Of a DNA stretch of 41,288 bases, positions 14,360 through 40,753 are shown one piece after another (position 1 is the first letter of the stretch; each line of letters begins with the position of its first letter). The translations under genes and the position numbers were made by a program. The notes beneath the pieces were generated by a model. That model did not search any database. It saw only the letters and a program-made list of their open reading frames with translations, and was not told where the DNA came from. The DNA is taken from positions 1 to 41,288 of IMG/VR virus record IMGVR_UViG_3300025687_000104, one strand, 5' to 3'. This stretch comes from a virus.

Positions 14360-14524
14360 TTAGTTGTCAATCGGAACGATGCAAAGGGCCGGATCATCGC
14401 CGCATTCCGAACACATGACGGAACCATCTTCGTACAGGTGCCACGCAGAGCAACCGCAATCACAGTGGTATTGCGCGGCTTCCTCTGGTTCATCAGCGCC
14501 GGGGAAAACGAAGATGTCAGCCAT
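14360..14524 (-). CDS. Small zinc-ribbon protein (54 aa)
   Basis: MADIFVFPGADEPEEAAQYH, then CDCGC, SAWHLYEDGSVMCSECGDDP and a short tail. The paired CxCxC and CSEC cysteines form a likely zinc ribbon; the CxCGxxxWHLxxDGxVxCxxC pattern is common in small phage proteins. It starts in a TAATG overlap with the fibre gene. The 54 bases downstream (14306-14359) hold the next gene's ribosome site and nothing else evident. Confidence 0.78.
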   Translation of the reverse strand: MADIFVFPGADEPEEAAQYHCDCGCSAWHLYEDGSVMCSECGDDPALCIVPIDN

Positions 14525-15525
14525 TACTGATCTCCAAAGCAGATCACGTTAACCGCCGCCGGGTCGCCTGCGGTTCCGACTGAGTTCTGCACCAGAACGG
14601 TCAGTGCGCCCGCTGTAATGGCGGTGATGTAGGGCGCATTCGTTCCGCTTGGAACTTGAGTAGTTGCTGTGCATGTGTATGTGGCCGATGAGAAGTCTGT
14701 ATCCCATTCCACAGTGTAGTTTCCAGTCCCGTTGTACGCCACAGACGCTACATTCTGCCCAGTCACATTGCCGATGGCTGAGCCGGGGACAGTGAACCGA
14801 ACAAACCCCTTCGCGGCGTAGGGTGAAGCAACAACCTGATCTGGTGTAACTGTCCTGGTGGACGCGAGGCTTTCCATATCAGACTGGTCAGCGTTTTCCT
14901 GAACGCCTGTTACCGAAGTGGACGCCACAGGAAGGTTGCTCCATGACGCATTTGCGCCGTTCGAGTACAAGAACTGGCCTGGCGTGCCTATGGGTAGGCG
15001 CGCCCCATCGCCGGAACTATTGCCTCGAATCAAATCCCCTTCATTTGCGATAAGCTCGTTAATGCTCGTTGTGATAACTGGGGAAAGAAGCTGAAAACTC
15101 GACCCGTTATAGACCACTTCGGCCTTCATACCTGTGTCAAGGTCGCCCGCCTCCAGATTCGCGCCGTTCTCCTTGCGGATTGCGACTGCGCCGAGGCTAT
15201 CGACGTTCAAAGTCACAGCACCGTCGTTATCCGTGTGAACATCAAAGCACAGCTTTAGCCCATCATAGTAACTCGTCAGTGTCCGTGCGGCGGAAAGCGT
15301 CCAGGCAGACGAAGACCCGGCAGAAGCAATGGAACAGGATTGGTCCTGCGACCACCGGGCGTTCGCGCCCTGCACGGCCCTGATTGCATCATTAACCAAC
15401 GCAGGCGACATATTTTCGGGGGCCAAATCGACATTGGAATTGTCAACGGCGTTCCAGTCCTGCACTTCAGCGGCAAGGGCGGGGATGGCAAGAAGTGCAA
15501 GCGCCGCGATAATGTAGCGTTTCAT
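14524..15525 (-). CDS. Tail-fibre-type protein with a Sec signal peptide
   Basis: 333 residues. MKRYIIAALALLAIPALAAE is a clear signal peptide. The next part (NVDLAPENMSPALVNDAIRA) is the motif of phage fibre proteins (EGMxPSxVNxxxRA), followed by the beta-rich segments TSYYDGLKLCFDVHTDNDGA and TLNVDSLGAVAIRKENGANL, also typical fibre repeats. The C-terminal third is beta-rich (TVEWDTDFSSATYTC) and may bind ligand. A fibre module behind an export signal is unexpected in a virion protein: it may be secreted or surface-displayed. GAGG precedes the ATG. Confidence 0.8.
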   Translation of the reverse strand: MKRYIIAALALLAIPALAAEVQDWNAVDNSNVDLAPENMSPALVNDAIRAVQGANARWSQDQSCSIASAGSSSAWTLSAARTLTSYYDGLKLCFDVHTDNDGAVTLNVDSLGAVAIRKENGANLEAGDLDTGMKAEVVYNGSSFQLLSPVITTSINELIANEGDLIRGNSSGDGARLPIGTPGQFLYSNGANASWSNLPVASTSVTGVQENADQSDMESLASTRTVTPDQVVASPYAAKGFVRFTVPGSAIGNVTGQNVASVAYNGTGNYTVEWDTDFSSATYTCTATTQVPSGTNAPYITAITAGALTVLVQNSVGTAGDPAAVNVICFGDQ

Positions 15526-22818: not shown

Positions 22819-24305
22819 TAGCGCCTGCCCTGTCGAACGAACTCAACGTCAATTCCTTGCGCGTGTGTCCATGTCCCGCCGGCTGCGACTGTCGTGGTGA
22901 AATCATGGTACCTGCCTGAGTTGTTTTGTGCAGTATCACCGATGTCATTGACCGAAGCCGCTGCGTCGAACGACTGCGTATCAAACAAGTCCTCACGACC
23001 TGCGACCTGCGTTGTGACAGTGCCGCCGTCAACCAGAGGTCTGACCCTTTGAACCCTGGACAATGCGCCCTTGTTCAATTCCATCGACCCTGTGGTGAAC
23101 GTCGCGGCAAGGTTCGCGCCGTTGAACTGGCCGTATTGACTTGACGTATCGAACGCCGCCAGGAGCCTATCCCCACCCGTCCATGAAATCGCATCCAGAG
23201 TGAACGGGACTGTTTCCAGATCAGGATACAACGCCCCGACTTCCTCAAGCGTCGTGCCAAGCGAAAGGCCGTCACCGATGCACTCGGCCTCAATATCAGC
23301 CGATGACCAGCGGTTTTCGGGCCAGTGGTAGATGAACATCTTGTTTGGCGTCCCGTTGGTGTTTCCTGTGCCGGGGAATGACCAGATGATCGTCTTGTTC
23401 AGCGGGTCGATTGCCGCCGAGACGCGGGTACGGTTGGAAATGTCGAACTGCGCCCAGAACTCATTATCAACTTTGTTTTCCCCGATAGGGTGCGACTGCA
23501 CACCGTCCGAGACATAGAACCCTTCGTCCGAAATGAAGTAAGTCAGCCGCCCAAGGGACACAACGGAACCCGGAATGGGCGTCCCGCGCTTCCTGTCGAT
23601 AGGGTCGAACCTGAACACCAGAGGCGGGCCGACATACGTCATGCGATAGATCGCGCGTTCGCAGAAAACTAGCCCGTATTCGACACCGCCCACGATGCGC
23701 TGAACGTCCCCGCCCTCTTTCAAATCTTCATAATCACACTGCGTATCAGCGTCGGGGTCAAAGTCCGTTTGGTCACGGATACCTGACCACCACACGCGGG
23801 ACCGCTTTACGCCGTCCGTGGTGTCGTTGGTATGCCCCAGAACCAGGAACTGCCCGACAACATCAAGCGTCCGCGCCTTGGGTTTGTTCGTGGACGTAAT
23901 CATGTCAGCGAAGGCAGAACCACCTGGCGTAATGGACTGCACGGGGTCATCGTAGTTCGTTGCCACGAATGTCGGGCCGAACTGCGTAAACTGCCAATCG
24001 GAATCGTCAGACAGGGAATACCCGCCCGCCTTGGAAACGTCGTTCCATGTGTCGGCAATCAGGCTATATAGCTTGCTTGCGTCCCCAGCGTAAGCGTAGG
24101 TCTGGTGTCCTGCACCCACAGCACCAGAAAAGCCCCGGCAACGCGCATCAAGTGCGCTTGACGTTCCAGACAGGGCCTTCATGGGCTGATAGCTGAAACG
24201 GTCGGGAATGACGTTCGTTGCTTCTCTCAGGCCGGGATTGCCGAAGTCGGGGAGGTCGGGGAGCCATTCCCCGAAGGGAATAGTTTTCATCTGGCGGCTC
24301 TTCAT
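22818..24305 (-). CDS. Tail nozzle / DNA stabilisation protein (P22 gp10-like propeller)
   Basis: 495 residues. Repeated beta motifs with aromatic-Asp blades (FGEWLPDLPDFGNPGLREAT; FVATNYDDPVQSITPG; FLVLGHTND; NRWSS) fit the beta-propeller nozzle proteins that close the portal channel in podoviruses. The order adaptor, small proteins, nozzle, tailspike agrees. The start is the ATG overlapping the upstream stop (ATGA). Confidence 0.78.
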   Translation of the reverse strand: MKSRQMKTIPFGEWLPDLPDFGNPGLREATNVIPDRFSYQPMKALSGTSSALDARCRGFSGAVGAGHQTYAYAGDASKLYSLIADTWNDVSKAGGYSLSDDSDWQFTQFGPTFVATNYDDPVQSITPGGSAFADMITSTNKPKARTLDVVGQFLVLGHTNDTTDGVKRSRVWWSGIRDQTDFDPDADTQCDYEDLKEGGDVQRIVGGVEYGLVFCERAIYRMTYVGPPLVFRFDPIDRKRGTPIPGSVVSLGRLTYFISDEGFYVSDGVQSHPIGENKVDNEFWAQFDISNRTRVSAAIDPLNKTIIWSFPGTGNTNGTPNKMFIYHWPENRWSSADIEAECIGDGLSLGTTLEEVGALYPDLETVPFTLDAISWTGGDRLLAAFDTSSQYGQFNGANLAATFTTGSMELNKGALSRVQRVRPLVDGGTVTTQVAGREDLFDTQSFDAAASVNDIGDTAQNNSGRYHDFTTTVAAGGTWTHAQGIDVEFVRQGRR

Positions 24306-25672
24306 TGTGCGGCCTCTGCGTCGTTGGATAGAAGGCCCGCGCCTGTAACACCGCCAAGCAGTCCGCTTGCCAAGAGATTGCGGCTGTTCAGGTTCCGGGG
24401 ATCGAAGCGGGCAAACCGGGATCGGATTTGATTCGCATTATCATCAAACACGATGAAATGCCGCGCATCCTGAGTCCCCGCCATTCCAGGCAGTTTTACG
24501 CCGCCGAATCCCTGTCTATTACTGAATACGGAAGCATCCATGTCGATGCTGTCAAATCCGGCCTTCTTGAAAATGTCGGCAATGACAGCGCCGGGAGATG
24601 CCATTTCGCCCGTGAAATCGTCGTAAACCTCATTGATGTTTGCCCGCAGAATGGCGTCAAAGTCTGACGCAGATATGCCCCCATCAACAGCGTCATCGTA
24701 CAGTTTTGCCAAAACGTCATCGCGGGTGAATTGGTCAATCTGCCATTCGTCAAAACTTTCCTGCGTTGCCCGCAGAAGGTCCATGAACGAGCCGCCCTCG
24801 CCCACAATGTCTTCCCCGTCATCGCTGTATTTTATGGCATAATCGAAAAATGTTTCACCATCACCGCCAACCCTGACCGGGTTCTCCATGCGCAACCGAG
24901 CCGGGTAAACAGTTCCATCATTCTGGATGCCAAGCCGTTCACGAGCGATGGCGTCTAGGGCTTCATCAATCTGGCCTTGAGACAGGTCTGCGGCGTCATC
25001 AACATCAACACCCCGGAACGCCCAATAGTCCAGAAGATCATCTGCATCCCCGTCAAACATAGCATCGGCGGACGATTCAATTTCTCTCTGGATTCTGCTT
25101 GTAATATCGGGTCCACCGAGGCCCGCGTAATTCTCGTTTACGTCTTCAAGGCTATTGGTGAAGTAATGGTGTGGGCCATAATGCCCCTCCGGGGTGCTGT
25201 AGGTATTCCGAAATTCGGTAATATTGCGTGGTGATCCATGCCACGCATCAACCGGAAAATATTGGTCTGCCCGCGCCATCTGACTCGCTGTGTCCATGGG
25301 TAGATCATCCGCCACACCCGAAAGCGCGTTGCCCACCTTGCCAACGGTCCCCATCACTCCCGGACCCGGCATCAGGGCGCTATCACCAAACGCCTGCAAA
25401 TACTCAGGCGACAACCCGCCGTACTCATCAGACACGCCCTGCAATCGCGCCATCTCCTGCGGAATCGTGTTCATGCCAAACCAGCCGCTGCCCTCGCCCT
25501 GTCCCGTCAGGCCCTGCCACCAGTTATCGTAGGCGGCAAGCATCGGATCGTTCGGCGTTGTCATGGTCGCCGCGAGCGGGCCTAAACGTGTTTCCATGTT
25601 CATGCGCTGGTCGCCATTAGGCGGTGCCATAGCCCTGATCCGGTCCAGTGCGTACTGATAAGCAGGCTTCAT
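24302..25672 (-). CDS. Virion-cassette protein with ADP-ribosyltransferase-like domain
   Basis: 456 residues, start MKPAYQYALDRIRAMAPPNG. An N-terminal helical region is followed by AWHGSPRNITEF (about 143-154) and GHYGPHHYFTNSLEDVNENY (163-182), the H and Y motifs of the phage ADP-ribosyltransferase fold; VYPARLRMENPVRV (about 255-268) is another typical element. The end (HFIVFDDNANQIRSRFARFD) is the common terminus of these domains. It may be ejected to modify host protein or nucleic acid. The third catalytic residue cannot be assigned. ATGA overlaps at both ends. Confidence 0.75.
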   Translation of the reverse strand: MKPAYQYALDRIRAMAPPNGDQRMNMETRLGPLAATMTTPNDPMLAAYDNWWQGLTGQGEGSGWFGMNTIPQEMARLQGVSDEYGGLSPEYLQAFGDSALMPGPGVMGTVGKVGNALSGVADDLPMDTASQMARADQYFPVDAWHGSPRNITEFRNTYSTPEGHYGPHHYFTNSLEDVNENYAGLGGPDITSRIQREIESSADAMFDGDADDLLDYWAFRGVDVDDAADLSQGQIDEALDAIARERLGIQNDGTVYPARLRMENPVRVGGDGETFFDYAIKYSDDGEDIVGEGGSFMDLLRATQESFDEWQIDQFTRDDVLAKLYDDAVDGGISASDFDAILRANINEVYDDFTGEMASPGAVIADIFKKAGFDSIDMDASVFSNRQGFGGVKLPGMAGTQDARHFIVFDDNANQIRSRFARFDPRNLNSRNLLASGLLGGVTGAGLLSNDAEAAQ

Positions 25673-26286
25673 GGCGTCGGAACCTCCGAACGCATCGACG
25701 CACCAACGGGGAAGCGGTCGCGCTTGTCGGACTTCATCACGCGGGCCTTGCTGTCTTCGTACAACCGACCCCAACGTGCGGCGGCTTCGTCATCCTCCAG
25801 GTACATGGCAAGTTCCATCAGGGAGCCGTAAAGCAACAACCCCCGTGCGTTGGAGAACAGCCAATTCGTGTCAGCATCGTCTGAGAGGTCAGTGAACCGC
25901 GCCCAATAGAACAGTTTGCCCGTGTGGCTACCGCTTGCGGGATACGGACCAAAGACGAAGTTCTCACCTTCAATGGTGAACGCCTTGGGTGTGCCTTCTG
26001 TCCGTGCAATCCTTCGCATCCAGAACTGCTCTGGATTGAGGTAGGTCAAGCGTGATGCGTCGTTGTCCAGAACGAACCGGCGAACGCCAAGAAACCCCGT
26101 GGGCAGTGCTGCAGTCTGGGCTGAAATGGTCACGTCTGCGCTGGTTTCCATCGCACGAACGCGGAGGTCCATGGCAATGCGATCCTGCGCCAGTGCGACA
26201 AACTCGGGGATGCGCGAGGTCAGGTCGTCACGCTCCGCCCAGTTGGCGATGGCGGATTTTAGTTCGCCGTAATTCGTCAGACTCAT
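25669..26286 (-). CDS. Head-tail adaptor protein (SU10/podovirus type)
   Basis: 205 residues: SLTNYGELKSAIANWAERDD, then IPEFVALAQDRIAMDLRVRA and MET, with TALPTGFLGVRRFVLD in the middle and a helical end. This is the phage adaptor family that docks beneath the portal. Coupled by ATGA to genes on both sides. Confidence 0.85.
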   Translation of the reverse strand: MSLTNYGELKSAIANWAERDDLTSRIPEFVALAQDRIAMDLRVRAMETSADVTISAQTAALPTGFLGVRRFVLDNDASRLTYLNPEQFWMRRIARTEGTPKAFTIEGENFVFGPYPASGSHTGKLFYWARFTDLSDDADTNWLFSNARGLLLYGSLMELAMYLEDDEAAARWGRLYEDSKARVMKSDKRDRFPVGASMRSEVPTP

Positions 26287-26780
26287 TGGAACAACTCCGC
26301 GCTGCCGTCATAGCCGTAACGCTTGGGGGGATGGATCACCCGCTGCAAATGGCTGTCGGGGTGGAATGTGACTTTAAGCCCACGGGCACGGGCCAAACCC
26401 GCAAGATAGGCAATCGTCGGGACTTGGTATTCATACGCCTCAGAGTTGCCCGGAACGCCCCACACGGCCATATCGTCGGCCTGGAGCATCGCCATTGCCA
26501 TCATGTAGGCAATCGAACAACTCATGTTCACGCCGGTCATCGCCGCGACTTCGGTCAGCGGGTACGGCTCGGCGGTGTTAATCTCGTGGAACCGCTCCTG
26601 CATGATAACGGGGCAGTCAAAGCCGTTCAGGTGTTCGATACGGTCGCACCATTTCTCCCGGCGGTGCATTTCAAACACCAGATCGGCGTCACGGTCGAAG
26701 GACTTGTTCATGACCCACCGCGCGTCGTGTTCGGGCGGGTTGTCCTGATAGTCGGGGTGTCCGCCAACGATCAGGATCAT
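26283..26780 (-). CDS. Rossmann-like phage protein (MptE-like candidate)
   Basis: 165 residues. DADLVFEMHRREKW, QERFHEINTAEPYPLTEVAA, SCSIAYMMAMAMLQADDMAV and WGVPGNSEAYEYQ match a common phage family with a Rossmann-type, MptE-like or sialyltransferase-like nucleotide-binding core, often within structural clusters. Substrate unknown. Its closeness to the O-antigen ligase-like gene is suggestive, but the family also occurs without such genes. Confidence 0.5.
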   Translation of the reverse strand: MILIVGGHPDYQDNPPEHDARWVMNKSFDRDADLVFEMHRREKWCDRIEHLNGFDCPVIMQERFHEINTAEPYPLTEVAAMTGVNMSCSIAYMMAMAMLQADDMAVWGVPGNSEAYEYQVPTIAYLAGLARARGLKVTFHPDSHLQRVIHPPKRYGYDGSAELFQ

Positions 26781-27121
26781 ATTTTGCCGTCCACGGCCCG
26801 TAGGTTCTTATAGTCGGGATCGTTCAGGAACTTGGCGCAAAACGCGCGTTTCTCCTTCGCCTTCCAGCGCATGAAGTCCTGCACACGAACACCCTTCTGA
26901 TGGCACCATTCCATCCAGATCACGGCGGGAATCTCGGCCACCTTCCTGCCGAGCGCCTCGCTGTCGGTCTGACCATCAGCCCGAAAGGCTGCATTGCGGT
27001 CGAGGATGCTGGAAACGTCCTGGTGGTAGCTGAGATACGACTTCTCGGTGTCGGGGTCGAAGTGATAGCGCGTCTCCACGCCACCATGCAGGCCCACAGT
27101 CTTGTCTGTGATCCAACTCAT
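26777..27121 (-). CDS. Conserved phage structural-cluster protein (114 aa)
   Basis: MSWITDKTVGLHGGVETRYH, then helical regions and the ending FLNDPDYKNLRAVDGKI, a pattern (LNDPDxxxxR) common in short-tailed phages beside capsid and adaptor genes. Function unknown. ATGA overlaps at both ends. Confidence 0.68.
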   Translation of the reverse strand: MSWITDKTVGLHGGVETRYHFDPDTEKSYLSYHQDVSSILDRNAAFRADGQTDSEALGRKVAEIPAVIWMEWCHQKGVRVQDFMRWKAKEKRAFCAKFLNDPDYKNLRAVDGKI

Positions 27122-27498
27122 TTTGGAACCTCAATCTTGCTTGCATGTAACAATGGCGACCACGGGGAAGCCGATGCGGACACATTCCATGCCCACTGTT
27201 CGGAAGCCTCGTCCATCACCACATTTCGTTTCATTGTCAGGTTGCGAAGGCTCAAATAGACCTGCTGCCGGATTTCCCAATCCCACGGGTACGCATAGAA
27301 AGCGTCGATATTCAGTTGTAGCGCGTCTGTCGGTTCCGCCACCAGGAGAGTGTAGGATTGCCCGAACTTGACGTGGCCCCGCCATTCCTGAAGGCCCATC
27401 CATCCGTTTGCCACAACGGCAGCGAACAGCACGACCCCAAGGCATAGGCGAGCAATGCGCCGGTAACTGGCATTTGTGCCGGGAAGCCAATCAAGCAC
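27118..27498 (-). CDS. Single-span membrane protein overlapping the ligase-like gene
   Basis: About 126 residues with the proposed GTG start at 27498 (the frame is open to 27603). A basic N-terminus (ASYRRIARL) precedes one span (CLGVVLFAAVVANGWMGL), then a soluble helical domain (TDALQLNIDAFYAYPWDWEI). It shares 187 bases in another frame with the end of the ligase-like gene. Such a domain resembles the periplasmic extension of some O-antigen ligases, so it may be a detached part or partner of that protein. The start has no strong ribosome site. Confidence 0.6.
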   Translation of the reverse strand: MLDWLPGTNASYRRIARLCLGVVLFAAVVANGWMGLQEWRGHVKFGQSYTLLVAEPTDALQLNIDAFYAYPWDWEIRQQVYLSLRNLTMKRNVVMDEASEQWAWNVSASASPWSPLLHASKIEVPK

Positions 27499-28466
27499 AT
27501 CACCGCACCGAGAATCAAAATCACTGACGGGGCCGCGCGGGTAAAGATCAGCCATAGACACAAACCACCCAATCCAAGGCCAATTAGACCGGCCTCGGCC
27601 CAAAGTTGCAGATAATCGTTGTGTGCCGCGCCCGCGTGATGCCCGATCTGGACCTCTACACGGTCAAACAGCGCCAAATGTTCCGCCCCGAAGCGGGGGT
27701 AGTGGTAGTTGAACGACCCGAAGCCCTGCCCGAGCAGTGGATGCTCCAGAATCATATGCCCCGTGTTCCACCATAATTCGAGACGGGCCAGAGCCGAACC
27801 GCTCACCACGTCCCACGCCTCTGGAACCGCGAACAGTGTCACCACAGGGACAGCCGCCGCGAACACCGCCGCACTTCGCACGTGTGTCCACAGAAGCCAC
27901 AAAAACAGGCCATAGAACGCAATGAACTCAATTCTGCTGGGCAGGTGCATCAGGTAGGCGATTGACGCACCCAGAAGGGCTAAATGCGCAATCCTGACCC
28001 ATCTGTGTTCGCTATTTGATCCAAACCAGAGAACTGGCAACAAAAGCACAACATACTCGGTCGCGAAGTTCTCATTCCCGAAGGAACCGAACCAGCCAAA
28101 CGTCAGCTCAAAGACCAGAACACCGGCCACACAAAGCCCTGCAACGCGAATGACGGGCTTCAGCCCGTACACCCTCCCGGCAAAGAAACACGCCGCCAGG
28201 GGCAGGATTTTGTGAAGCTGGTGCAGGCTCTGCCGTTGATCCTCTGACCAGAGAACCGACAGGCAGAGCCAGCCCAGAAACAACAGCACGGACGCCGTGA
28301 CGGCATCCCACTGAAACTTCAGGAACGGCAGCGCGAGGCAGAAGGCATAAAGCACCATCCACTTGGGAAGATGCCCTGCAATCAGCCCCGGCCACCATGC
28401 CATGGTAGCAAGGAAAAGGGCGGCTGAGATAACCCAACCGCCCAGATCATTACTGACCTTCAACAC
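27312..28466 (-). CDS. O-antigen ligase/polymerase-like membrane protein (Wzy_C/WaaL family)
   Basis: 384 residues with roughly ten membrane spans. Family marks: GSFGNENFATEYVVLLLPVL (128-147); a large periplasmic loop with ARLELWWNTGHMILEHPLLG (227-246) and QGFGSFNY; then HNDYLQLWAEAGLIGLGL (282-299), the hallmark of O-antigen ligases and polymerases. These enzymes join or extend undecaprenyl-linked glycan at the periplasmic face of the inner membrane. TTG start at 28466, overlapping the upstream stop; weak ribosome site. Its last 62 codons overlap the next gene. A host-envelope enzyme gene inside a virion cassette is very unusual. Confidence 0.85.
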   Translation of the reverse strand: MLKVSNDLGGWVISAALFLATMAWWPGLIAGHLPKWMVLYAFCLALPFLKFQWDAVTASVLLFLGWLCLSVLWSEDQRQSLHQLHKILPLAACFFAGRVYGLKPVIRVAGLCVAGVLVFELTFGWFGSFGNENFATEYVVLLLPVLWFGSNSEHRWVRIAHLALLGASIAYLMHLPSRIEFIAFYGLFLWLLWTHVRSAAVFAAAVPVVTLFAVPEAWDVVSGSALARLELWWNTGHMILEHPLLGQGFGSFNYHYPRFGAEHLALFDRVEVQIGHHAGAAHNDYLQLWAEAGLIGLGLGGLCLWLIFTRAAPSVILILGAVMCLIGFPAQMPVTGALLAYALGSCCSLPLWQTDGWAFRNGGATSSSGNPTLSWWRNRQTRYN

Positions 28467-28929
28467 GGATCACCAGAACCGCGTCAATGTCGTTCGTCGA
28501 ATAGCCCGACGTGGTGATGGCGATAACGTCACCAACCGCAACGGCCTGATCCGACAGTGTGAGCGTATCCACGTCACCAGCGGCAGAGTTGCTGAACGCG
28601 ATGTCCAGCGTGGTGCCGTAGTCCGTGAACGCCGTGGTTCCGACAGAAGCCACGCTCACAGTCAGGGAAATGTCATGCGTGGCAATCGCGCCAAACAGGA
28701 CACTCTGAATCTGTGCAAGGTCGCCCGCAATCGGGGAAACCATGAACGTGGTCGATGCCGTGGAGACATTCTCCAGCAAGACGGTCAGATCGCGGCCAAC
28801 GGGGATTGTGTCCCCGTCGCCATTGACCCAATCTACTGTGCCGTCGTCACTCTGGCGAATGTTCCAGCCCGCAAACGCGAGGCTGGGAACAAGCACCAGA
28901 GCGACCAGCAAGGGAAGAAAACGCTTCAT
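28450..28929 (-). CDS. Exported beta-rich protein following the capsid gene
   Basis: 159 residues. MKRFLPLLVALVLVPSLAFA is a strong signal peptide. The mature part is Thr/Ser/Val-rich beta sandwich (STASTTFMVSPIAGD, TLSDQAVAVGDVIAITTSGY) and would suit a capsid decoration domain were it not exported. It may be periplasmic or surface-bound. TAAGGAG lies just behind the capsid stop. Last 17 bases overlap the ligase-like gene. Confidence 0.75.
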   Translation of the reverse strand: MKRFLPLLVALVLVPSLAFAGWNIRQSDDGTVDWVNGDGDTIPVGRDLTVLLENVSTASTTFMVSPIAGDLAQIQSVLFGAIATHDISLTVSVASVGTTAFTDYGTTLDIAFSNSAAGDVDTLTLSDQAVAVGDVIAITTSGYSTNDIDAVLVIRVEGQ

Positions 28930-28938
28930 GACCGCTCC

Positions 28939-29889
28939 TTACGAGGTTGTTAGATCGGCAACGATGCCCGAAGCCGCTTCGTTGCGGGATTCAAGCGTGA
29001 ACTCCACCAGAAGCTGTGAACGCTCACTGTCGCCGGTCTTCGCCAGCTTGTTGGTCGTGAACGGACGCAGGTAGGCCAAGGCCCACATGTCGTTCTGGAG
29101 AATCCAGCAATCACGAGCACGCATGAAGCGGTTCGGGATCACTTCGAGTTCACCGAAGTCCGAGTCATACAAATCAATGGAAGCCATCAATTTGCTGTCT
29201 TCAGCCGTCTTGAAGCGGGTTGCATTACCGGTGAAGGTCGAGAACTTCTGCTTGTTGAAGCTGCCGACATAGATCGTGTCCGGCTCACCGCCCGAGTTCC
29301 AGGCAGAGGCCAGAACGGCCTTCACCTGTGCTTCGGTAAAGGCACGCTGCGTGCCATCGGTGCGGGCGGTGTTACCCAGACCCGTGCCGTTGGCGGCAGC
29401 ACCCGTGCCAATGTCGGTGTTGGTGATGACCCACGAAGGCAGAGCGCCCAGTGTGCGAGCCGTCGAAACGTCACCGGCTGCCTCGGCCTGCAATGCGCAG
29501 ATCGTGGCTTCCATGTCTCGCTTCAGTTCCTTGCCGTTCTTGGCGACCTGGTACGAAAGTTCGTTCTTGCGACCGGCCTTGGAAACGACCTGCTGCGTAC
29601 CCGTCACACGGCTCACCTTGTCCATGATCTGGCAGGTGTTCGAGAGACGGACAGTGGGGGTCACGGCGTCGGTGGTTGCATCAGCACCTTCCTTGACCGC
29701 GTTCGAGGTGGACGCAGCGGCGAGTGCGTCGGTCTGCCACTCGTGCAGAACGGCGGTTGCCTTGGAGCGTCCGATGGACGACATGATGGGACATTCAACG
29801 GGCGAAATGTCATAGATCGCGTCGGAGAGGTCTTCACGGTTGCCGACAGCATCAAACGTGCTGAAGGTATCTGCGGGTTCAATAGCCAT
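28939..29889 (-). CDS. Major capsid protein (SU10 family)
   Basis: 316 residues. The opening (TFDAVGNREDLSDAIYDISP, then VECPIMSSIGRSKATAVLHE) and the WQTDALAAA segment are typical of SU10-type HK97-fold capsid proteins, as is PTVRLSNTCQIMDKVSRVTG. The C-terminus ends LAYLRPFTTNKLAKTGDSER and VEFTLESRNE. It forms the icosahedral head. Scaffold gene lies upstream. Confidence 0.92.
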   Translation of the reverse strand: MAIEPADTFSTFDAVGNREDLSDAIYDISPVECPIMSSIGRSKATAVLHEWQTDALAAASTSNAVKEGADATTDAVTPTVRLSNTCQIMDKVSRVTGTQQVVSKAGRKNELSYQVAKNGKELKRDMEATICALQAEAAGDVSTARTLGALPSWVITNTDIGTGAAANGTGLGNTARTDGTQRAFTEAQVKAVLASAWNSGGEPDTIYVGSFNKQKFSTFTGNATRFKTAEDSKLMASIDLYDSDFGELEVIPNRFMRARDCWILQNDMWALAYLRPFTTNKLAKTGDSERSQLLVEFTLESRNEAASGIVADLTTS

Positions 29890-38196: not shown

Positions 38197-39515
38197 GACG
38201 ACAACCCCGCGAGTGCGTCGTCTGACAGAGCGGCAGTCCATTCGCCCACAACAGCCAGAGAACCGCCCCACGTCTTGGTGTTCGCCACATTATCCCCGGC
38301 GCGAAATGTCGTGATGCCCGATGGCAGTGTGCCTGCGCCGTCCGTAGCAACCGAAGCACCATCCAGAGATGCAGCGAAGTCGCTGGCAGAGATACGCAAC
38401 GCAATCGCGAAATCCGTGTCATCGGCAATCGTCGCACCACTGTCAAAGTCAGCCTGCGATGCACCGCCGTCCACTACCTGCACGGCAATCTCGCCCTGCG
38501 TGGAACTGCCACGGCGCAACACCGTCACACGGTTGTCTTCGGTTCCGTCATCCCACTGCGCAACCACCTGATCGGTTGATCCGATTGATGGAGCAGTGCG
38601 GCCCTTGAGCAGAATTGTGCCAGGAAGGCTTGTCGTTGCCCGCGTCACGTCATCCACCGTCCGCGTCACCGCGCTGGCGACGGTTTCTATGGGGGTTGTG
38701 GGGGTGGAGGTGTTGAGTTCAATCGTGGCATAGTCCATCGCAGTCGATCCTGTCGCTGCGTTATCCAATGTCGTGCCGTTGGTAGACCCAGCAGGGTTCA
38801 AAAGCATACGCGCGGTGGTGTTGCCCGTGGAATTATTCAGCACTGTTGACCACCACAGCCAGTGATCGTCAAAGTCTTCAGCCTGAGAGGTGACTGTGCC
38901 TGTCTCTGTAATGGCGGTGACTACACCTGTATCCGTGTCGAGAATGGCTACCACCTGCTGTGCGGTCCCCCCCGTGAGTAGCGCCTGCATCATCGGGAAG
39001 TGGCTCGCACCAGAGGTCTTTGGAACCCTTAGCGAAAACAGGTTCACGTTGCTGTCGTTAGGGCAGGATGTATTTATGTATTTGTTAAGCCGCGCCGCAC
39101 CGCTGTCGTCAGTCAGAACAATGTTTCTTGTGGCACCATCAACGACACTGACGCCGGAAGACACTGACGCCGCGGCTGTATGCAGCCACGCCGCGTTAGA
39201 AAAGTCCCGGCTGTAGGTCAGGCTGTTGGCACTCTCCCCCTCCACCAGCAGGCCCTTGTTGACCCACACTGAACCGTCATAAACGTAATTGAACCTGGCA
39301 ACATTGATGGCGGCAGACTGGAGAACGCCACCAGCGTCGAAATAATTGGCCGTACTGGAACGCTCGAACGTATGCGGGCCACCACGCACAACGGCGTCGT
39401 CTAATGTTTCGCTGCCCGCGTAGTCGTAATAGGCCGATGGCTCACCAGCGCCACGGTAAAGCTGGTACTTCTGCACCAACCCACCACGCCGGATATTGCC
39501 GCCCATAATGGCCAT
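38193..39515 (-). CDS. Fibre/spike-like protein with lectin-type module
   Basis: 440 residues. FERSSTANYFDAGGVLQSAA, then NVARFNYVYDG and VEGESANSLTYSRDFSNAAW is a sequence pattern common in phage fibre and appendage proteins. The C-terminal part (GEIAVQVVDGGASQADFDSG, DTDFAIALRISASDFAASLD) looks like a concanavalin/LamG-type jelly roll. Likely glycan-binding, on virion or tail. TAATG overlap with the signal-peptide gene upstream. Confidence 0.75.
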   Translation of the reverse strand: MAIMGGNIRRGGLVQKYQLYRGAGEPSAYYDYAGSETLDDAVVRGGPHTFERSSTANYFDAGGVLQSAAINVARFNYVYDGSVWVNKGLLVEGESANSLTYSRDFSNAAWLHTAAASVSSGVSVVDGATRNIVLTDDSGAARLNKYINTSCPNDSNVNLFSLRVPKTSGASHFPMMQALLTGGTAQQVVAILDTDTGVVTAITETGTVTSQAEDFDDHWLWWSTVLNNSTGNTTARMLLNPAGSTNGTTLDNAATGSTAMDYATIELNTSTPTTPIETVASAVTRTVDDVTRATTSLPGTILLKGRTAPSIGSTDQVVAQWDDGTEDNRVTVLRRGSSTQGEIAVQVVDGGASQADFDSGATIADDTDFAIALRISASDFAASLDGASVATDGAGTLPSGITTFRAGDNVANTKTWGGSLAVVGEWTAALSDDALAGLSS

Positions 39516-39859
39516 TACTGGAGCATCTCCGTCACGTACACAGTGCCGCTTGATGACACGGAGAACACCGCAACCTGCTCGCCCGCGCCGATGTTCAGAT
39601 ATTCAGGCGTGAAGGCGGGGACGTACATGTGGGTGACGCCCGCGCTTGCGTTCGGACTCACTCCGACATTAAAGAAAACGTCGGTGGTCGAAAGAACGCG
39701 AATCGTGCGAATCTGCGAGGTCGGCACTGTGGTCGCCGCCGTCGAGGCGTAAGGGTTTGAATCAATCGTAAACGTCGCGCCGGGGCGAAAGATGACTTCC
39801 CCGGCAAACGCGGTGGACGCCACCAGAAGCAGCGCCAGGACGGTGATGATGCGCTTCAT
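39515..39859 (-). CDS. First late gene: exported small protein
   Basis: 114 residues: MKRIITVLALLLVASTAFAG is a Sec signal peptide; the mature part is beta-rich (RPGATFTIDSNPYASTAATT and a YVPAFTPEYLNIGAGEQVAV segment) like a small virion or secreted sandwich protein. Start follows AAGGAGA by 7 bases. One of four signal-peptide proteins in the late operon. Confidence 0.75.
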   Translation of the reverse strand: MKRIITVLALLLVASTAFAGEVIFRPGATFTIDSNPYASTAATTVPTSQIRTIRVLSTTDVFFNVGVSPNASAGVTHMYVPAFTPEYLNIGAGEQVAVFSVSSSGTVYVTEMLQ

Positions 39860-40300: not shown

Positions 40301-40753
40301 TCAGACACCGTAAAACTCATCCAGAACGTCCAGGGCTTCCCGCAACCGCCCCATGCCGTATTCCTTGCGCTCCCCTCGTGAGTGCGCCCAGTCGTTTGCC
40401 GCCATGTTCTCGCAGCACACCCTGATGCACACATCGGCACCGATGGGGCCAAGGGCCTGCACCGCGTCACGCCACCTCTCAGCGGCCCGCAATTCGCCTT
40501 CCTGATGGCCCGTGTGGGATGGCTCCTGGCGTTCATAGGCGCAGGTTGTTGATGCACCAGATACACCGCGCTCGTAGTCCCGTTGGAACTGTGACCCTGC
40601 CAGCCACTGTTCGTGCGTGATGGCCCCGCGTGATTCGTAGTGGTCCAACTTGTCGGCATTGGTGCGGACAACCTTTCCCACACCCAGAAGGGATGTGACG
40701 GACAGCCCGCCCTTGAAACGCGGCTCGTCTACGCTGAATGCGGGCTTGGTCAT
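40301..40753 (-). CDS. DUF6456-like protein
   Basis: 150 residues. ESRGAITHEQWLAGSQFQRD, then ERWRDAVQALGPIGADVCIR, VCC and EALDVLDEFYG match the DUF6456 pattern known from alphaproteobacteria and their phages (sometimes thought to bind DNA). Starts in an ATGA overlap with the small gene upstream. Useful as a host-group marker. Confidence 0.75.
   Translation of the reverse strand: MTKPAFSVDEPRFKGGLSVTSLLGVGKVVRTNADKLDHYESRGAITHEQWLAGSQFQRDYERGVSGASTTCAYERQEPSHTGHQEGELRAAERWRDAVQALGPIGADVCIRVCCENMAANDWAHSRGERKEYGMGRLREALDVLDEFYGV

Follow-up and report, generated by a model that had tools for sequence, protein, structure and literature searches.

A two-piece Wzy-family enzyme beside exported virion-type proteins in the late cassette of a phage

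Introduction

The Wzy enzymes of phages are familiar as serotype converters. What, then, might such an enzyme act on when its gene lies in the middle of a virion cassette? The question is raised by the window analyzed here, the whole 41,288-nucleotide stretch of IMG/VR virus record IMGVR_UViG_3300025687_000104, in which three overlapping minus-strand ORFs are flanked by an SU10-type capsid gene on one side and by the adaptor genes on the other. A Wzy in this position, next to proteins with export signals, suggests that, late in infection, the phage decorates either the proteins it exports or the surface of its host. In the following we describe the block, the enzyme and its unusual division, the exported proteins and their distribution, and weigh the possible acceptors.

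A Wzy locus within the virion cassette

The block and its flanks comprise the following features:

28939-29889, minus strand: SU10-type major capsid protein, upstream flank (PF17236, E 6.6e-100)
28450-28929, minus strand: gene 1, beta-rich protein of 159 aa with a Sec signal (MKRFLPLLVALVLVPSLAFA, then G), homolog of HTVC106P gp61
27312-28466, minus strand: core of a polytopic enzyme of the Wzy_C/O-antigen-ligase family, 384 aa (PF04932), conserved as protein to about G344
27118-27603, minus strand, -1 frame relative to Wzy: gene 3 ORF, putative last transmembrane helix and periplasmic tail split from Wzy
26777-27121, minus strand: phrog_3982-type gene, downstream flank, found near the capsid gene in relatives without the block (PHROG match and synteny)
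25669-26286, minus strand: SU10-type adaptor (PF24175, E 9.9e-33)

The three ORFs have the coordinates given in the first-pass annotation and all lie on the minus strand. Their packing is tight, with overlaps of 17 bp, of 292 bp (counting whole ORFs) and, with the gene that follows, of 4 bp. Portal, scaffold and terminase genes were also identified in this phage, no LPS genes were seen near the block, and the wzy locus is that of a late virion cassette. Its placement is indeed unlike serotype conversion by prophages, as had been noted, and no integrase was found among the ORFs scanned, which are part of all ORFs of a possibly incomplete record. The survey of relatives that the annotation had proposed recovered the three-gene block in related viral contigs at 100, 96, 86 and 76% identity as well as in more distant phages. 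In HTVC106P, Venkman, ppBeUSDA76-2 and spring-water contigs, the capsid-adaptor interval holds small genes only and no membrane enzyme.

The surroundings offer some further observations. Between the phrog_3982-type and adaptor genes lies a conserved 165-aa protein (26283-26780) that matches no family; it has homologs in L004 and its relatives and is absent from this position in HTVC106P. Among the virion genes, 24302-25774 weakly matches ART-PolyVal (E 4e-4, short of the cut-off) and is possibly an ADP-ribosyltransferase-type polyvalent protein. In the clade at 76% identity (L004:2842-3459 and L005, L007 and L008), gene 1 is immediately preceded by a gene for an HNH-type endonuclease. Concerning the host, 40301-40753 encodes a DUF6456 protein (E 1.6e-11), which we take to be an alphaproteobacterial family and hence a hint. 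Two phage contigs 74-75% alike to this phage, L033 and L232, were binned in a Verrucomicrobiota MAG; we rejected a Verrucomicrobiota host drawn from the binning of L033, likely a case of misbinning or contamination by a phage contig.

A polytopic enzyme of the Wzy/WaaL superfamily

The assignment of 27312-28466 to the Wzy/WaaL family, originally made from motifs (GNENFATEYVV, EHPLLGQGFGSF and HNDYLQ), is borne out by a profile search, in which the protein matches PF04932 (Wzy_C) with E 2.1e-11 and 44.3 bits against a curated cut-off of 31.7. The same family is matched by 9 of 14 phage homologs. Aligning these 14 revealed N131, R228, W232, H282-N283, F328-P329 and P333 as invariant, and R178 is kept in all but one (13/14). 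Essential residues are R215, R288 and H338 in Escherichia coli WaaL and R224, R298 and H349 in Neisseria meningitidis PglL (PMC3643930); by order and motif, R178, R228 and H282 were assigned as their counterparts.

An AlphaFold2 model of the enzyme core, of modest quality (pLDDT 66), contains many long helices, and a Foldseek search with it gave RodA as the best PDB match (probability 0.97 but E 0.037, with no other match above 0.16). WaaL is absent from the matches of this pLDDT-66 model; RodA and the O-antigen ligases both belong to the GT-CB class (PMC10920833). A sequence search of the PDB with Wzy returned no match. The superfamily assignment is nonetheless firm from the PF04932 match and the conserved residues, and we regard 27312-28466 as a true membrane protein of the Wzy_C/O-antigen-ligase superfamily. 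Within it, the sequence fits a ligase, a polymerase or a protein transferase alike. The PglL_A motif (PF15864) has no match in any of the 14 homologs; PilO of Pseudomonas aeruginosa likewise lacks it (PMC3643930).

An enzyme encoded in two ORFs

The third ORF, 27118-27603, had been described as a separate single-span membrane protein. Its single hydrophobic span stands (161 aa in total); its independence does not. Only about 27118-27435 is the conserved coding part, and the rest of the ORF is not conserved as protein. Comparing this phage with L004, at about 24% DNA difference, changes at the three codon positions number 10/5/23 before G344, with third positions in excess when the Wzy frame is read. 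After G344 they number 9/9/15, and 13/7/26 beyond the Wzy stop, with third positions now in excess in the frame of gene 3. From its residue 56 on, gene 3 can be aligned by BLASTP (E 6e-11) with the C-terminal end of the Wzy of the contig L123, a single chain of 564 aa, and the core can be aligned only up to G344 with L123 (34%) and with an alphaproteobacterial chromosomal homolog (27%). Because the codon-position switch at G344 coincides with the L123 matches of both pieces, the last helix and the periplasmic tail appear to be encoded separately. Judged in this way, gene 3 is the C-terminal piece of Wzy itself and no independent gene family, a point that the first-pass annotation had missed.

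The split into overlapping ORFs occurs in two phage lineages, in the -1 frame here and in the +1 frame in epsilon15-like phages, where 9 of 10 Wzy carriers have the two-ORF design. A sequencing error as its source is ruled out, since the split is also found at 76% identity and, in the other frame, in a separate lineage. No conserved slippery heptamer X XXY YYZ was found in the overlap between wzy and gene 3, which together with the opposite shifts in the two lineages disfavors a programmed -1 frameshift. A fusion by frameshift at the switch point is similarly disfavored, as it would delete a cytoplasmic loop that is present in L123. A separate start inside wzy is therefore the simplest reading of the sequences and the one we favor over a frameshift that joins both ORFs into one chain. 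Separately, the large terminase ORF of L123 (859-3102) contains an apparent intein, a Hint-like and homing-endonuclease-like insert ending in HNT.

Virion-type proteins with export signals

The neighbor of the enzyme, gene 1, had been called an exported beta-rich protein, and it does combine a Sec signal with a subsequent beta region; its AlphaFold2 model is all-beta (pLDDT 80). Fold searches returned generic beta-protein matches and no functional name. What had been overlooked is its relationship to the Pelagibacter phage HTVC106P, whose gp61, the gene after the capsid gene, is 45% identical over residues 48-122 (tblastn, E 2e-5) and carries no signal. To judge from this homology, gene 1 is a normally unexported virion-cassette protein to which a Sec signal has been added. 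Two more signal-bearing late proteins had also escaped notice:

39515-39859, minus strand: second virion-type beta protein with a Sec signal (MKRIITVLALLLVASTAFAGEV...), HTVC106P gp60 homolog (HMM survey)
14524-15525, minus strand: tail-fibre-like protein with a Sec signal (MKRYIIAALALLAIPALAAEVQDW...) (PHROG tail families, tblastn)

The gp60-like protein is unexported in relatives without Wzy, and in 14524-15525 the signal precedes a fibre-type N-terminus whose homolog in ppBeUSDA76-2 has none. As a refuting outcome, the first-pass annotation had named the genes of the block being ordinary virion components with no effect on glycans. For gene 1 this holds by half, its relatives resembling ordinary phage genes; for the enzyme it does not hold. 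Phage capsids assemble in the cytoplasm, so the export of virion-type proteins calls for an explanation; the exported proteins may attach to the virion at lysis or may act at the cell surface.

How closely do signal and enzyme travel together? We surveyed capsid relatives in IMG/VR, detecting gp61 and gp60 homologs by HMM and signals by a simple hydropathy rule rather than SignalP. Homologs are found in most surveyed contigs, directly after the SU10-type capsid gene in HTVC106P and its relatives, and start directly at MRTLNDYF or similar. Of the contigs that lack Wzy, 64 have a complete interval, and in none of these does either protein carry a signal; unlike this phage, HTVC106P and some 70 relatives have neither export signal nor Wzy. 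The gp61 homolog carries a signal in all four Wzy contigs (this phage, L071, L072 and L123), and so does the gp60 homolog in both Wzy contigs where it was found. In a quick capsid tree, however, the SU10-type Wzy carriers fall into a single clade with 98% SH-aLRT support, and the signal and Wzy may thus represent only one event. The comparison phages without Wzy probably infect other hosts, and the association in the SU10 set could be one historical coincidence or could follow the host. Serine plus threonine content of the gp61 homologs is slightly higher with Wzy (25% versus 23%).

Recurrence in epsilon15-like phages

A second phage type provides a further comparison. The contigs L011, L031 and L032 encode an epsilon15/phiV10-like capsid protein, a capsid type unrelated to the SU10 type, and present the same order of an exported beta-rich protein, wzy and gene 3. 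Among 80 epsilon15-like capsid relatives, 10 have a Wzy close to the capsid. In the clade of this phage, in L123 and in most epsilon15-like Wzy carriers, wzy comes immediately after the exported gene, which overlaps or abuts it. Sec-signal late proteins are common in epsilon15-like contigs with or without Wzy, and most of the Wzy-less ones have many. This survey indicates that Wzy carriers have exported neighbors, yet late export needs no Wzy. A strict rule of signal if and only if Wzy was accordingly rejected, given these signals without Wzy and the single clade of SU10-type carriers.

Following the signal, the exported proteins ahead of wzy in both phage types (L031:5558-6001, L011:1742-2176 and gene 1) have in common a loose N-terminal pattern of about (L/I)xQxxxG...NGxxxP, perhaps a shared element for recognition or anchoring. 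Up to 9 kb past the capsid gene, most of the epsilon15-like contigs L152-L231 encode several Sec-signal late proteins, including fibre-like proteins of 400-700 aa (MKRLLLALALLLLPSLAFAQCNGVF...), whether Wzy is present or not. The sources of these contigs are, as far as can be told, mainly soil metagenomes, and this pattern of late-cassette export in epsilon15-like phages apparently has no description in the literature searched. Such late clusters were not seen in alphaproteobacterial prophages with epsilon15-like capsid genes (41-55% capsid identity).

Possible acceptors of the glycan

Wzy_C enzymes act on the periplasmic side on lipid-linked glycans, as established for WaaL and PglL. Building on what can be read from the DNA itself, namely the family, the catalytic residues, the gene order, the signals added relative to homologs, and the split with its conservation, our tentative first choice is that a late, periplasm-facing enzyme loads a host lipid-linked glycan onto exported phage proteins. 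The block would be expressed late in infection. The enzyme would be an inner-membrane GT-C glycan transferase of two pieces, a core and a separately encoded last helix with periplasmic tail, with its active site predicted to face the periplasm. Sec would take gene 1, the gp60-like and the fibre-like proteins there, and a glycan, most likely host Und-PP-linked, would be passed to one or more of them as acceptors. We place this reading first because wzy consistently follows an exported gene, in the manner of PglL-type transferases beside their acceptors, 21 of 31 of which lie next to a pilin-type acceptor gene (PMC3643930). Gene 1, with its Sec signal directly upstream of wzy, is the candidate acceptor by adjacency. 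With the protein O-oligosaccharyltransferases of the PglL, PilO (TfpO) and PglS type, the phage enzyme shares the PF04932 superfamily, the R...R...H residues and an exported neighbor that is possibly the acceptor. Unlike them, it lacks the PglL_A motif, is split in two ORFs, lies in a late cassette beside a virion-type beta protein instead of a type IV pilin, and its activity is a prediction. Against glycan transfer to exported proteins stand the absent PglL_A motif, the single clade of SU10-type Wzy carriers, the epsilon15-like export without Wzy and the small serine/threonine difference.

A late change of the host O-antigen or another surface polymer, through altered polymerization or ligation, is a possible alternative that ranks close behind. 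It would keep progeny from re-adsorbing to debris or exclude rival phages, and the exported proteins would be a separate matter. The superfamily includes both WaaL and Wzy, and with WaaL the phage enzyme shares PF04932, the catalytic residues and likely the GT-C (GT-CB) fold. The pectate-lyase-type tailspike of this phage (PF12708) is probably glycan-binding, and the epsilon15 relatives belong to a group of phages with known O-antigen conversion. Wzy_C genes also occur in D3, phi297 and VarioGold, with serotype conversion known for D3, and the VarioGold protein VG_p25 even adjoins a signal-peptide protein, VG_p26 (PMC9658991). However, those genes belong to a conversion or moron cluster whose transcription is separate from that of the late genes, whereas here wzy is found among virion genes in the capsid-adaptor interval. 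Unlike waaL, it lies outside any LPS locus, and a second ORF supplies the C-terminal helix and tail. Moreover, tblastn of the enzyme against the INPHARED phage records (50,697) gave no match, D3-type Wzy included, and the recurring exported virion-type neighbor is left without explanation. Considering the added signals on three proteins and gene 3 as a piece of the enzyme, we rate O-antigen alteration as no likelier than protein glycosylation.

Less probable is a host-envelope module in which exported virion-type proteins, for instance receptor-blocking decoy fibres, and Wzy serve the same layer with neither acting on the other. The many late proteins exported in epsilon15-like soil phages irrespective of Wzy, and the signal on the fibre-like 14524-15525, would fit such a module, but by itself it gives no reason for wzy to lie directly after an exported gene in unrelated phages. 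An origin of the block as a mere passive moron, or as a bacterial import in decay with a broken ligase and overlapping debris, is very improbable and already largely refuted by conservation: the closest non-phage homologs are bacterial, the alphaproteobacterial chromosomal one (L245) is a single 604-aa ORF and the phage gene is split, but codon-position constraint acts in both frames over 24% divergence, the split is maintained at 76% identity and independently in the epsilon15-like carriers, and the active-site residues are kept.

Implications

Phage Wzy enzymes as such are already known. As far as the literature was searched, three features are new: the position of the gene in a virion cassette, its exported partners of virion type and the division of the enzyme between two ORFs. 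A Wzy inside the virion cassette beside virion-type proteins with gained export signals recurs in two unrelated phage types. We also consider, as an unlikely extension of glycan transfer to exported proteins, that in both capsid types Sec-exported virion-type proteins are glycosylated by a two-piece Wzy-family transferase and then coat the particles at lysis with host sugar. The split enzyme would represent a natural two-part GT-C transferase and is directly testable. If the exported proteins are the acceptors, these phages would glycosylate proteins in the periplasm by themselves and may carry host glycan on display. Such a display, if true, would matter for adsorption and for recognition by grazers and by other phages.
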